A stretch of 64,000 bases of DNA from Nymphaea colorata (lineage: Eukaryota; Streptophyta; Magnoliopsida; Nymphaeales; Nymphaeaceae). Location of the stretch: the NCBI RefSeq assembly GCF_008831285.2, contig NC_045138.2:2706143-2770142 (forward strand), written 5' to 3'. The position numbers were made by a program, and so were the translations under genes. The notes below the pieces were generated by a model. It made no database searches. It was not told the origin of the DNA and was given only the letters and a program-made list of their open reading frames with translations. Positions 15,056 to 53,400 of the stretch are shown one piece after another. Every line of letters starts with the position of its first letter. The first letter of the stretch is position 1.

Positions 15056-15330
15056 ATAGCCATTTTTAGAGAGGGAGAGAGAGAGAGTAGGGACAAAAAT
15101 TGATTAACTTATACAACACCTTTCAATATCAACAAATAATATCCTGCAAGTTTAGTACTGAGGATGTGACTACAATACTCCATTAGAGAAATTCGACATT
15201 AAAATGCAAAAACTCAGCATCTCATAAGAAGTAAGATGGACAACAAACGACCCCATGGGGTGAAAGAAAGACCACCAAACCTAAGAAAAGGCAACCAGAG
15301 AGAGAGAGAGAGAGAGTCATAGGGTCCCAG
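15056..15330. repeat. Neprosin 3'-flank repeat, copy 1
   Basis: About 275 bp next to the last neprosin exon, starting at a CCATTTTTAGAGAGGGAGAG tract. The same block occurs at 24974-25261, 34637-34960 and 48475-48800, and in part near 16775-16850. It is the conserved 3' flank (probable 3' UTR, minus strand) of each neprosin copy and shows that the loci arose by segmental duplication. Confidence 0.75.
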
Positions 15331-15773
15331 TTCTTCATGGGCAAGCGGAACTCAGCCCAGGTCCTCCAAAGCAGAGGTTAAATTTATCAAACCTGTACTC
15401 TCGTTCATCGTAGCAGGAGGGGCTGGCGACGAGGATGCTGACGGGTTCCTCCAACAGGCGGACATGGTCGTCGCTGTCCATGTAGCTGGGACTCCAGATG
15501 CCGGCCGCCTTCCTATAGTCGGTTTTCGACTCTATAGGGAAGAGGCCGTTCTCCATTTGGGTGGTGGTGTGCTGCCCGCCGGCAAACGTGTCGTAGACCT
15601 CGCCGCCCATCATCGTGCCATTTGCCCACCAGCTCAGGCCCGTGAACAGCAACCCCGGCCAGTACCCCACCGCCTCATCGTCCGCATGAACCCACCAGTT
15701 CCCGTCTTCCTCCTGAACAAGGTGTTCCGACAAAACCAGAACCGATGCCAATCAATGCACTGTTTCCATAAGC

Positions 15774-15837
15774 GCGCGCGCACACACACACATATATATA
15801 TATATATATATATATATATATATATATATATATATAT
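15774..15837. repeat. (CA)n(TA)n microsatellite
   Basis: Compound dinucleotide repeat in intron 6 of the neprosin pseudogene. The intact copy carries a much longer TA tract in the corresponding intron. Confidence 0.95.
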
Positions 15838-15979
15838 GACTTGCTTTCAAAGCCACGGGTTAAAATTGAAATTATGATATCAAGTGCGCGTTTATACCTC
15901 CAAAGGTTAGACAGCAACTGGTAAAAGAGCATTAATTATAAAAATTTAAATTTTTAAAGGACACTAATTTGTACATTAG

Positions 15980-16440
15980 GGGCCGTTTGATGGCAGGAAA
16001 TTTGAAAATGAAAAAAAAAATTCAGAAAAAATTTTTTGGAAATGATGAATAGGAAATAAAATTCCAATTGTCCAAAACCACCATTTTGTTTGTTACATAG
16101 GAATTATTTTTCTGAAAAAAAAATTCTTTGTTTGATGAAAAAAAATTGGAAAAGAAGGAAGAGGAAGACACGACCGTTGTGTGCCTGAGGAGAGGAAGAG
16201 GATGACTGTGTGCGTGAGGAGAGGTGCTGGGTGAGGACGATGCCCTTTCCTTCTTTCTTTCTCTTTTCCCTTTCTTTCCTTTCCCCTTCTTTCTTCCTCT
16301 TTCCCCTTTCTTCCCATTTCCCTTCTTTCTTCCTCCTTCCCCTTTCTTCCCTTCTTCCTCTATCCCCTTTCTTCCTCTTTGGGGCTCGGCACCTCTAGGG
16401 GTGTTGAGTCTGGAGGGATGGAGGTAGAACCCTTTCCTGT
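15980..16440. other. Inserted sequence with pyrimidine-rich tract
   Basis: Begins at GGGGCCGTTTGATGG, a sequence type common at the ends of plant MITEs, and includes a TTTCCCTTTCTTCC-type polypyrimidine tract (about 16245-16380) that is open on both strands by composition alone. It interrupts sequence matching intron 6 of the intact neprosin gene. I do not see a matching right terminus. Confidence 0.4.
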
Positions 16441-49600: not shown

Positions 49601-51350
49601 GTCATTGACGTCGGTCGTCTGATATCCAGCCAAATAATTGACATCAAACAGCCCGTATATCGCCGACCTGTTGATCCGATAGTTCTAAGTGGGTCGAGTC
49701 ATGCCAATGTAATCCAAATCATCTCAACATCTCAACATATATATATATATATATATATATATATATATATATATATATATATATATATATAGGGGTAGGT
49801 ACTATACCATCATATGCCATATTTGATGGGCAATGTAACCCATTGATTTTAAATAAATTTAGTGGTGGAAATATGCCTTTAATGGAGGAAACGAATAAGT
49901 TTCCTTGATTGAAAGTTTTTTCCTTCTCCTTTGAAGGCTATTTAAATAAGTTTCCTATTATATATAATCTTATTTTTATGTGACTTTAAATTTAACCATA
50001 TAAAATTATAAATGAATTTAATTTGTGTCTCCTACAATGCAGGAATTCGTAAGGGTGCAGAAATCAACAGCCTTAGGCTTGTTGAGTTTACACATGGAAA
50101 ACAAGTTTTATGTGGACTACCATCACGTACATGTCACACAACACTAAGTAGAGTCCCACGAGATTTGAAGCACATTTACATAGTTCCATGATAAATTTAT
50201 GTTCACTTTCACACTAGTTCTCTCGTTTCCATGAGTTGATCTTCGAGACTAGCAATAAATCCACTAGCTTTTAATCTCAGTGGATCAATTCATGTACACG
50301 ATATTGCATGTAACTGGCTTTTTGCAACAAATTGCAAACTCATGGATCTTACAAGCTTGTATGTCCAGGAATAGGATTTTCTATGAATTTCAAGATTCCG
50401 CAAAGTTGCAAACATCAAGAATCTCAGGTTTGTTGAGTTTACACGGTGTAAGCAAGCTTTTATATATTTAAGGAATACTCTACTATGACTAATTAGACTC
50501 GTATATAGTAGTTTCAGATAAATTTTAGGGTTTTATAAAGTAGCCATTGTTTGTGCAAGTGATTGTTTATATCGAATATACATAAAGTGTGAGCTTGTGA
50601 GTCATTAATTTTTTTCTATTGTCAAACTATTGGCTATCATTCACATTTTTAGGAAAATAACTTTTATCCGGACGCCTTGTAAACTATAAATCAATGTGAT
50701 CAGATGGCTCGTAATTAGTTCATATAATTTTCATCTTGCATAAATTCAATATCTGCCAATATGTGTGTGTGCAAATGACATACCAAACAGCGTGGTTGAT
50801 GGTCTCGAGTGATATCTCAAGTTAAGAAAACAAAGAAACCGGTGCCGTCATACCAAATTATACAGGATATTACATTGAAAACAAGGAAATTTTCATCCTT
50901 TATGCTCCTTACTTTTCATCTATTTTACTTCCACACCAACAGGACCCCAGTGACAGAAAGGGGCAACACGTTGGTGCTCTCTCCAAATGAAGTCTCTTTT
51001 ACCAATTTGCACTAGGTTTGTTCATCTTATTATATTTATATATAATATATACATAGATATATGATTTTTACCCGAAAAGTGAAACCAGTTTGTTCGTCAT
51101 TCCAACCAAACAGCAATTTTACCGTTGGAAATCTTCAGAACAAAACCAGTTTCTATAGCTAATTGTCAATTTATGCTCACGTTCTAGTCTTCGATAGCTG
51201 TTAATGAGAAATTTATACTCAACTCTTATATGCCTACCATAATGTAAGCAGCTAATTGTACCTACTGAGGAGTCCGTGGTTGAGGAGTACCACTTAAAGA
51301 AACAAGCAAACGCCACTGGAGCTAAAACCCCATAGTGGCAAAGGGGTTAT
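49338..51350. repeat. Neprosin upstream block, copy C
   Basis: Collinear with copies A and B. Compared with B it lacks the hAT insertion and has a deletion near 50580 (the CCGAATGGCTAAAACTG segment is missing). It contains a (TA)n tract at 49737-49791. Confidence 0.75.
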
Positions 51351-51402
51351 GAAGATCATATACTTGGATTGGACATATATATATATATATATATATATAT
51401 AT

Positions 51403-51712
51403 AAAAGCCTGGGCAATGGGTACTCGGCCAGATTAATGTTTCTTTATTACTTTTATTTAATAATATATATTATTAAAAATATATTTTATATTCAAAAAAT
51501 TATTTTATATTTAAAAAATATTTTCCAATTTATTCAAACAGAGCCCAAGCTAGGGTTTAGAACATAAGGCCGATCCAAGCCCAACTTTTATCCGGGATCC
51601 GAGCCCAACTCTTATTAGGGCAGGCCGAACAGATGCCCAAACCTAATATATATATATATATATATATATATATATATATATATATATATATATATGTGTG
51701 TGTGTGTGTGTG
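51403..51712. other. Insertion with GCCCAA-rich ends and (TA)n(TG)n
   Basis: Sequence absent from copy B at the matching place. It has GCCTGGGCAATGGGT at the left and CAGATGCCCAAACC at the right, an AT-rich centre and a TA/TG microsatellite at 51645-51712. It resembles the GGCCCGG insertions in layout. Class uncertain. Confidence 0.35.
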
Positions 51713-51814
51713 AGCGCTTCATTGTACGTTAAATGATGGTTCTACATGTGACAAGAAATGTAAAGTTGAAAACTATTGCAAACGATTGTTAACTTAAAAG
51801 AGGAAAGCAACAGT

Positions 51815-53400
51815 AATGCCCAGTTTTCAGTGTCAAAACTAACCAATTAGAAGCTAGGCTTCCTTTTTGCAGGCATGTTTAGTGTCGTACCTATTTTTGA
51901 AGACGGTGAGCAGTTCTAGTTATAAAATGTTTGAGTGATCATATGAAACTCATTAACTTTTTATTCAAACCTGTAAAAGCGTGTTGGGGAGTAAATCTGT
52001 TGCTGGATCAATTACGATACTTTCAATATCTTATAACGTCAAGGCAAATTATGAGATTTTGAAATTTAGCCAAACATGCATTCCAGTTTATGTCTTTCAC
52101 TAATTAATGATGTCTAGTATCTTTTTATCAACCATGATTTTACTAGTAAGATTTGGCAAAAATTTTTATTATATCCAACTTAATTCATGCAACTGGCCTG
52201 GAGAATTCCCATATTGCTTTATTATTGAAACAAAAAATCAGTTCTCATTCATCCATGCATAATTCCTCCTTTAAATCTTGATACTATAAACGTACAAAAC
52301 ACAAAGGCCTTGCTACCATTATAATGCTGCATGCCTAAGAGAGAACCAATAAGTAGATGAAGGAATAATCAAGCATCTACGTGGTTAAGTGCGCATGCAT
52401 GTACATGTACATGTCCACGTAACGTTTACATCTAGCTGCTTAAAGCCATAAAAGTTTTTCTTTTTTTTTTCTTTTTTTTGAAGTTATATATGCTTATGCT
52501 ATTAATTGATGCACATTTGCATGCAACTTAAATGATATATGCGATGCAACTAACAAAGCAAATCATACCTCAAAATCAAATATCTCCATGAACTAGAAAA
52601 AAATAGTGTTAAAGAGTCCTACATGCATGTTGAAGAACTCATATATTCAATAAGAATAATGACACATGCAAAGTAGCAGTGGCAGAGTTGGGATTTTTTG
52701 GTTGAGAGGGGCGCCAGTCACCCCCAAAGATATGGGCACCCCATATATAATCATAGCAGTGTAGTTTCTGAATTTTTAAAATGAAACTTTTGATGAACCG
52801 TGTGGGGAATAACCCGCACCAGCTCCCATGTTTCTCTGCCACTGTAATGCAGCATAATTCTTTCAAATAAAGAAAGAAACAATAGAAGCAAAAAGGCTCT
52901 CATACAAGTTTAAGAAGAGACATGAGAACCATGATAACCTAATTATCCTTGAGAAGATTTCCATAGTTAATCTTTGCCTGGAGGTTTATAGGCTGCAAAT
53001 AGTACTTGGACACTGGAAACTACCACATGGGAACTCACCACCTCTATCATAGGCACGCTTAACATGGCATGCTATCCTGTGTAGTTCTTCATTAACATAT
53101 AAAACAGGCACCTCGGTCGTTTAGCAGCAGAAACACTTGTTAATGTCCAATGATTCTACCCAAAAGATTAGGGCAGATTCATCATGGGATGCTAGTTCTA
53201 GTGTTCCATGAGTCTACTTAAATCTCTGGGGCAGAACATTGGGTACTCACATAATGTCCCTGCTGCCAAACGACCTCCAAGAAAACAAACAAGAAAAACC
53301 TTCACTGCATTGGGTGCTTAGGTAAGGATGCATAATTCTAACCCCAAACAATGAGAGGTTAACAGCTCGAATCAAGTAGTTTAAGAACATGTGTGCGGGT
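51815..53400. repeat. Local segmental repeat Q, copy C
   Basis: Paralogue of 41520-43080, carrying the same MITE. No gene is visible. Confidence 0.75.
52677..52844. mobile_element. CAGTGGC hAT-like MITE in segment Q, copy C
   Basis: CAGTGGCAGAGTT at the left and CTCTGCCACTG at the right, 168 bp. Same insertion site as 42303-42473, so it was inserted before copies B and C separated. Confidence 0.7.

Follow-up and report, generated by a model that had tools for sequence, protein, structure and literature searches.

Tandem copies of a convergent membrane-protein and neprosin gene pair, one intact and three decayed, in Nymphaea colorata

The window described here is a stretch of 64,000 nucleotides on contig C1 of Nymphaea colorata (positions 2,706,143-2,770,142), in which a gene for a membrane protein (MP, used for the gene and its open reading frame, ORF) and a gene for a neprosin lie convergently on opposite strands. 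The history of the pair is read from the DNA of this one genome, and searches of the own genome cover the assembly of 407.8 Mb in 783 contigs. Comparison of the window with itself (blastn, E 1e-8) gave 130 non-trivial matches, and the reversed, uncomplemented window, used as control, gave none at the same cut-off; since the E-values of the self-matches are extreme and the control is empty, the homologous blocks are beyond chance. They recur in the order MP, MP 3' flank, neprosin 3' flank, neprosin on the other strand and neprosin upstream (promoter) block, in one intact convergent pair (unit 1) and three decayed relatives (units 0, 2 and 3; Table 1). A first-pass annotation of the sequence had described this order, and the self-comparison recovered the blocks that it had claimed. 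Linked tandem duplication followed by birth-and-death decay, in which the two genes stayed together by passive linkage, is the explanation that we consider best as a whole, and we hold it with considerable confidence.

Table 1. Features of the window, with positions counted from its first letter (TRF, Tandem Repeats Finder; MITE, miniature inverted-repeat transposable element; ARF, auxin response factor; U1-U3, promoter blocks of units 1-3; X and XY, further repeated blocks)
Feature	Positions	Strand	Basis
Unit 0, neprosin 3' flank, exon 7 (15335-15712, open) and part of intron 6	15043-16022	-	self blastn
Unit 0, promoter-block fragment adjoining MP-3'-flank fragment	16446-16855		self blastn
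Unit 0, neprosin exon 6, truncated, frameshifted, acceptor absent	19790-19906	-	reading of two sequences
Unit 1, intact MP ORF, 466 amino acids	22611-24011	+	ORF list, hydropathy, TRF
Unit 1, MP 3' flank	24012-24720	+	self blastn, matches past the window
Unit 1, neprosin gene, 7 exons, 388 amino acids	25262-31187	-	splice signals, Pfam
Unit 1, neprosin upstream (promoter) block U1	31220-32841	-	self blastn
Unit 2, MP 3' flank and neprosin 3' flank, ending in part of exon-7 remnant	34294-34956		self blastn
Unit 2, locally inverted segment: block X and remainder of exon-7 remnant	34967-35336	-	self blastn
Unit 2, G+C-rich MITE-like insertion	35337-35690		inferred from sequence
Unit 2, promoter block U2, first part	35713-37091		self blastn
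Unit 2, hAT-like insertion, 3.4 kb	37092-40481		inverted ends, flanking repeat
Unit 2, rest of U2 and block XY	40489-43058		self blastn
Unit 3, broken MP region	43121-48228	+	self blastn, TRF
Unit 3, MP and neprosin 3' flanks, ~40-nt exon-7 remnant (minus, about 48765-48815)	48233-48830		self blastn
Unit 3, block X in place of neprosin gene body	48844-49277		self blastn
Unit 3, promoter block U3 and block XY	49337-53568		self blastn, cluster comparison
ARF gene, B3 and ARF_AD domains	55411-59166	-	Pfam
Block XY, additional incomplete copy on the 5' side of the ARF gene	59303-60741		self blastn

The intact unit was found where it had been placed before, at 22.6-32.8 kb. Its MP has hydrophobic stretches in the first ~300 amino acids (11 hydropathy peaks in residues 14-292, some overlapping one another) and an acidic C-terminal tail of ~25-amino-acid repeats, encoded by 75-bp tandem repeats, with 40 D/E and 4 K/R in residues 305-466. 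Nothing significant was found in Pfam (best E 0.052) and there was no match in PDB; the MP that survives probably still works as a membrane protein. Copies of the MP 3' flank are present in the window at 34294-34623 (unit 2), 43289-43715, 47183-47291 and 48233-48466, with six further matches in an MP cluster past the window. The gene also has two distant stop-free relatives in the own genome, C7:4,547,765 (32% identity) and C9:20,457,802 (25%); no tail repeat is visible in blastp with the former, and the latter aligns to MP residues 24-302 only.

The neprosin gene is a model of seven exons placed by eye from splice signals in the DNA alone (31187-31074, 30395-30309, 29211-28996, 27820-27641, 27034-26981, 26425-26288 and 25639-25262), and exon 3 has a second possible acceptor, which gives a start at 29268. 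The predicted protein carries the catalytic domain PF03080 (E 7.6e-51, 173 bits against a cut-off of 22) and the activation-peptide domain PF14365 (E 1.6e-19, 71 bits against a cut-off of 39.2, profile positions 1-80 of 120), and a hydrophobic stretch follows the start methionine.

For unit 0, at the left, the first pass had claimed neprosin exons 6-7 only. Exon 7 and a broken exon 6 are there, and the unit also holds a promoter-block piece (16446-16735; 93% identity to unit 2, 92% to unit 3 and 82% to unit 1) and an MP-3'-flank piece (16731-16855). Because a promoter piece of the unit 2/3 type sits beside MP 3' flank, unit 0 is read as a mosaic. Exons 1-5 were not found in it by tblastn. As exon 6 is broken and exon 7 (360/375) is conserved no better than its 3' flank (276/284), a working gene around exon 7 was ruled out. 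Beside unit 0 lies an array of ~30-bp repeats (20099-20525; 11-15 copies by different TRF rows) with open frames on both strands.

Unit 2 had been described as flanks only (34.3-37.1 kb and on) and unit 3 as an exploded MP part with no neprosin exons. The flanks (the neprosin 3' flank of unit 2 at 34759-34880), the promoter block and the MP arrays stand, but ~40 nt from the end of exon 7 also survive in each unit. The block repeated between them extends to 43058 and 53390, the latter end lying at 53568 when judged by the cluster past the window, and a portion of the block turns up again at 59303-60741. The promoter block of unit 2 is interrupted by an insertion with 16-nt terminal inverted repeats (TAGGGATGTCAACGGA, matching at 16/16 positions), flanked by an 8-bp repeat, TTTATATC and TTTATATT, that matches at 7/8 positions; ends and target duplication are those expected of hAT elements. 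No hAT transposase was found in it, with no Pfam family in any of the six frames, so to judge from its ends it could be a non-autonomous hAT-like element. Both of its ends match a shorter stretch in a neprosin intron of unit 1 (28444-28821, 68-72% identity).

The neprosin remnants of units 2 and 3 give the order of events. On reading the two sequences, the stop-side deletion of exon 7 is identical, an internal exon-7 deletion is present in both with lengths 3 nt apart, and the same block X lies next to the remnant. Because the deletions and the adjoining block are common to both, the loss of neprosin most simply predates the separation of units 2 and 3, and the unit would have been copied again after its neprosin was dead. 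Left of the hAT-like insertion the agreement is 1082/1149 positions for units 2 and 3, against 932/1090 for units 1 and 2. The relation is turned over in the 415-bp tract that follows the insertion, with 406/415 for units 1 and 2 (40489-40903 against 32427-32841, 97.8% identical) and 350/412 for units 2 and 3. Since the similarity switches at this tract, some later exchange between copies is needed.

Beyond the window, MP had 64 matches in the genome (78 candidates scored), in seven places: the window, C1:2,798,206-2,812,364, C1:2,842 kb, C10:24,057 kb, C11:19,174-19,185 kb, C7 and C9. The second of these is the cluster past the window, 28 kb away and on the minus strand, in which all longer copies have stops and some short stretches are stop-free. 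On C11, the last copy of an MP array reaches MP nucleotide 415, where it is joined without a gap to 29 nt of neprosin exon 1 with 0.43 kb of promoter block (86% identity), in the same orientation as in unit 1. This junction indicates that MP and neprosin were at one time copied to C11 together, in one block. Together with the units of the window, the decayed derivative of MP, exon 1 and promoter bears out the earlier proposal of linked convergent duplication with birth-and-death turnover.

Pieces of MP have also been turned into tandem arrays. Unit 3 has an array of ~353 bp from MP codons ~107-222, from which nine copies were cut out between 44720 and 48182, all nine with a stop, a frameshift or both relative to MP, and an array of 256 bp x3 (43710-44478) whose source is the MP tail. 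The C1 cluster has 740 bp x6 (78% matches) from the MP 3' half and 445 bp x3 (99%) from the 3' flank. The array on C11 (loci L031-L032, C11:19174761-19184734) covers 10 kb with 1893 bp x5.3 (98% matches), each unit containing two copies of the MP 5' flank and the first ~296 nt. The MP piece on C10 spans a joint of the 353-bp unit, for which reason it probably descends from the array in the window. A consensus of four copies of the C1 cluster has three stops, and therefore these copies multiplied after death. The arrayed pieces are thus the middle, the acidic tail, the 3' half, the 3' flank and the 5' end. We suggest, tentatively, that MP may be a repeat-prone seed, different pieces of which were arrayed at three places (two of them linked), some after death, so that it would repeatedly have given birth to satellite-like DNA and carried along its neighbour, a putative pseudopeptidase neprosin.

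From these observations we propose the following history. A segment with the convergent MP and neprosin and the neprosin promoter would have been duplicated head to tail at least twice in the window, and copied at least once to C11. Most copies would then have lost coding parts through deletion, transposon-like insertion, local inversion and internal tandem amplification, and some exchange between copies would have followed, as the switch of similarity at the 415-bp tract suggests. Unequal crossing over or slippage may have been the mechanism. MP and neprosin would have travelled jointly because they were physically linked and not as a working pair; we infer this passive linkage, like the timing, from the arrangement of the copies.

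Another explanation is that the blocks are parts of transposons or dispersed repeats which captured gene pieces by chance. The hAT-like and MITE-like insertions inside unit 2, the presence of block X in both orientations and beside the ARF gene, and the MP pieces on C10 and C11 would suit it. However, gene order and orientation are kept across several kb, the insertions lie within unit 2 and not at its edges, and six-frame Pfam scans gave no family at the cut-offs used, either in the stretch of the large insert (37.05-40.5 kb) or in three others (16.0-20.9, 50.4-55.4 and 59.2-64 kb). We regard capture by chance as unlikely.

The first pass had also suggested that MP and neprosin may be paired by function, with hitchhiking as the other choice. 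MP could then be, for instance, the receptor or membrane partner of a peptidase-like ligand that is secreted, and the two genes would be duplicated together under selection. They are convergent neighbours with both frames open, they were duplicated jointly, and they left a joint derivative on C11. Against this stand the loss of neprosin before units 2 and 3 separated and the distribution of the two genes in the genome. PF03080 had 96 matches at the level of exons (125 candidates scored) and formed clusters on C7, C6, C2 and C1:27 Mb; the positions of 70 of the 96 were compared with the seven MP places, the other 26 lying within ~10 kb of those 70. A PF03080 match within 60 kb was found at only one of the seven places, the window itself. 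The near end of the C1 MP cluster has the window's own neprosin as nearest match at 66 kb (73.6 kb from the point used), which is also 111 kb from the MP piece at C1:2,842 kb; the nearest match is 1.64 Mb away on C11, 2.14 Mb on C7 and 17.4 Mb on C10, and there is none on C9 among the matches listed. In the 80 kb past the window, where the C1 cluster lies, nothing matched neprosin exon 7, its 3' flank, the promoter block or block X at E 1e-6. Conversely, the neprosin clusters at C7:18.4, C6, C2:5.1 and C1:27 Mb are without an MP match at E 0.001. Hitchhiking suffices, pairing by function is unsupported in this genome, and we rate it as even less probable than chance capture. Wrongly joined haplotypes are the least probable source of the duplicate blocks. 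Assemblies do err in tandem repeats and in tracts of near identity (97.8% over 415 bp; arrays at 98-99%), but most blocks are 6-25% apart with distinct insertions, more than we would expect between alleles, and decayed copies are found on other contigs as well.

Linked duplication with decay has some points against it, too. Both frames of the intact pair are still open beside dead copies, and selection on MP appears only weakly. Compared with the consensus of the 353-bp array, MP differs at 13, 10 and 21 sites at codon positions 1, 2 and 3, and the changes private to array copies number 86, 73 and 66; the third-position excess in MP gave p=0.022 (Fisher), and the three-way test p=0.057. Against the consensus of the four dead C1-cluster copies the nonsynonymous rate (dN) is 0.119 and the synonymous rate (dS) 0.256, a ratio of 0.46, but the codon-position test gave p=0.37; dN/dS among the dead copies themselves is 0.58-0.91 (6 pairs). 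MP is likely under constraint on these sequence comparisons, and strong purifying selection was dropped because the tests disagree. Exon 7 of units 0 and 1 has 15 differences in 375 nt (dN 0.038, dS 0.053). Further, units 2 and 3 do not match letter for letter in their exon-7 deletions. Past the right end of the 415-bp tract their identity is mostly 0.78-0.93 (150-column bins) and not 0.94, which blurs the donor and direction of the exchange and how far it reached. For this reason we speak of exchange and not of gene conversion from unit 1 to unit 2. Finally, four stretches of neprosin intron (63-210 bp, 69-83%) do match in the 80 kb past the window, and these short matches are taken for dispersed repeats.

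At the right end of the window, block XY begins ~140 bp upstream of the ARF start codon, and it is also found beside the MP cluster past the window. The block may be the ARF promoter copied into the array, or a transposon; tblastn with the two ARF ORFs detected no other trace of an ARF gene in the window. The ARF gene has a miR160-like site at 56137, 2 of 21 bases off the pattern used. A short ORF with an AP2 domain (PF00847) lies at 13199-13756 (+). Rfam gave no match in the window at gathering scores, and ARAGORN found no tRNA.

Birth-and-death evolution is the general model of tandem gene clusters. The window is similar to such clusters in its duplicated neighbours, one intact copy, pseudogenes of differing age and exchange between copies, and it differs in that two unrelated neighbours move as one block and pieces of one gene repeatedly become arrays. 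A limited search of the neprosin literature on tandem duplication or pseudogenes showed nothing on such an arrangement. The turnover itself is ordinary birth and death, and it makes a clear example for linked genes, with an intact pair beside units at several stages of decay and an event order readable from shared losses. The points of most interest are the repeated arrays from one gene and a neprosin without Q173 and W175. As in the satellite birth described in PMC7004042, a non-satellite segment was locally amplified into a tandem array; that source, by its title, concerns retrotransposon-derived repeats, whereas in our case the arrays grew from a protein-coding gene, of which different pieces were used at several places. 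The repeated conversion of pieces of one gene into arrays would offer a natural setting in which to ask how satellite DNA begins.

In sequence pattern, MP and its C7 relative presumably resemble the Arabidopsis family of At1g10660 and At5g62960. At1g10660, At2g47115 and At5g62960 are tabulated in PMC1794564 as candidate seven-transmembrane (7TM) members of "Expressed protein family 2". MP would differ from this family in its long acidic tail of 25-amino-acid repeats.

The neprosin of Nepenthes is described in PMC9343461 as a glutamate-class prolyl endopeptidase with E188 and E297 as the proposed catalytic pair, in which the mutants Q173A and W175A have no activity left, while H134A, Y136A and Y214A have lost ~80% of it. 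The neprosin of the window is 36% identical to it (PDB 7zu8) across both domains and keeps both glutamates, H134 and the activation-peptide domain, but differs by Y136F, Q173K, W175A, T186S, Y214G and Y220F. Q173 and W175 are present in all nine comparison proteins that span both, namely 7zu8, two proteins from contigs labelled as bacterial metagenome-assembled genomes (MAGs) and six paralogous stretches of the own genome (L003, L004, L006, L010, L036 and L037; the first four come from eight paralogous loci compared, the other four of which lack coverage of these residues). T186S is common, occurring in three of the six covering paralogues (L003, L004 and L006); Y214 is kept in 6/7 covering loci of the eight-locus set (exception L009) and in L036, and L010 has N in place of H134. 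The two MAG neprosins (L001 and L002; Nitrospiraceae and Hyphomicrobiales) are each encoded in a single uninterrupted frame, and 9 of 10 compared active-site and propeptide residues are as in Nepenthes neprosin, with K118 different. Because K and A stand at positions 173 and 175, the surviving neprosin is probably a pseudopeptidase, that is, a predicted secreted protein which is catalytically dead or re-specialised. A neprosin which shares both glutamates with the Nepenthes enzyme and lacks its Q173 and W175 would serve as a test of whether plants retain the neprosin fold for non-cutting roles.

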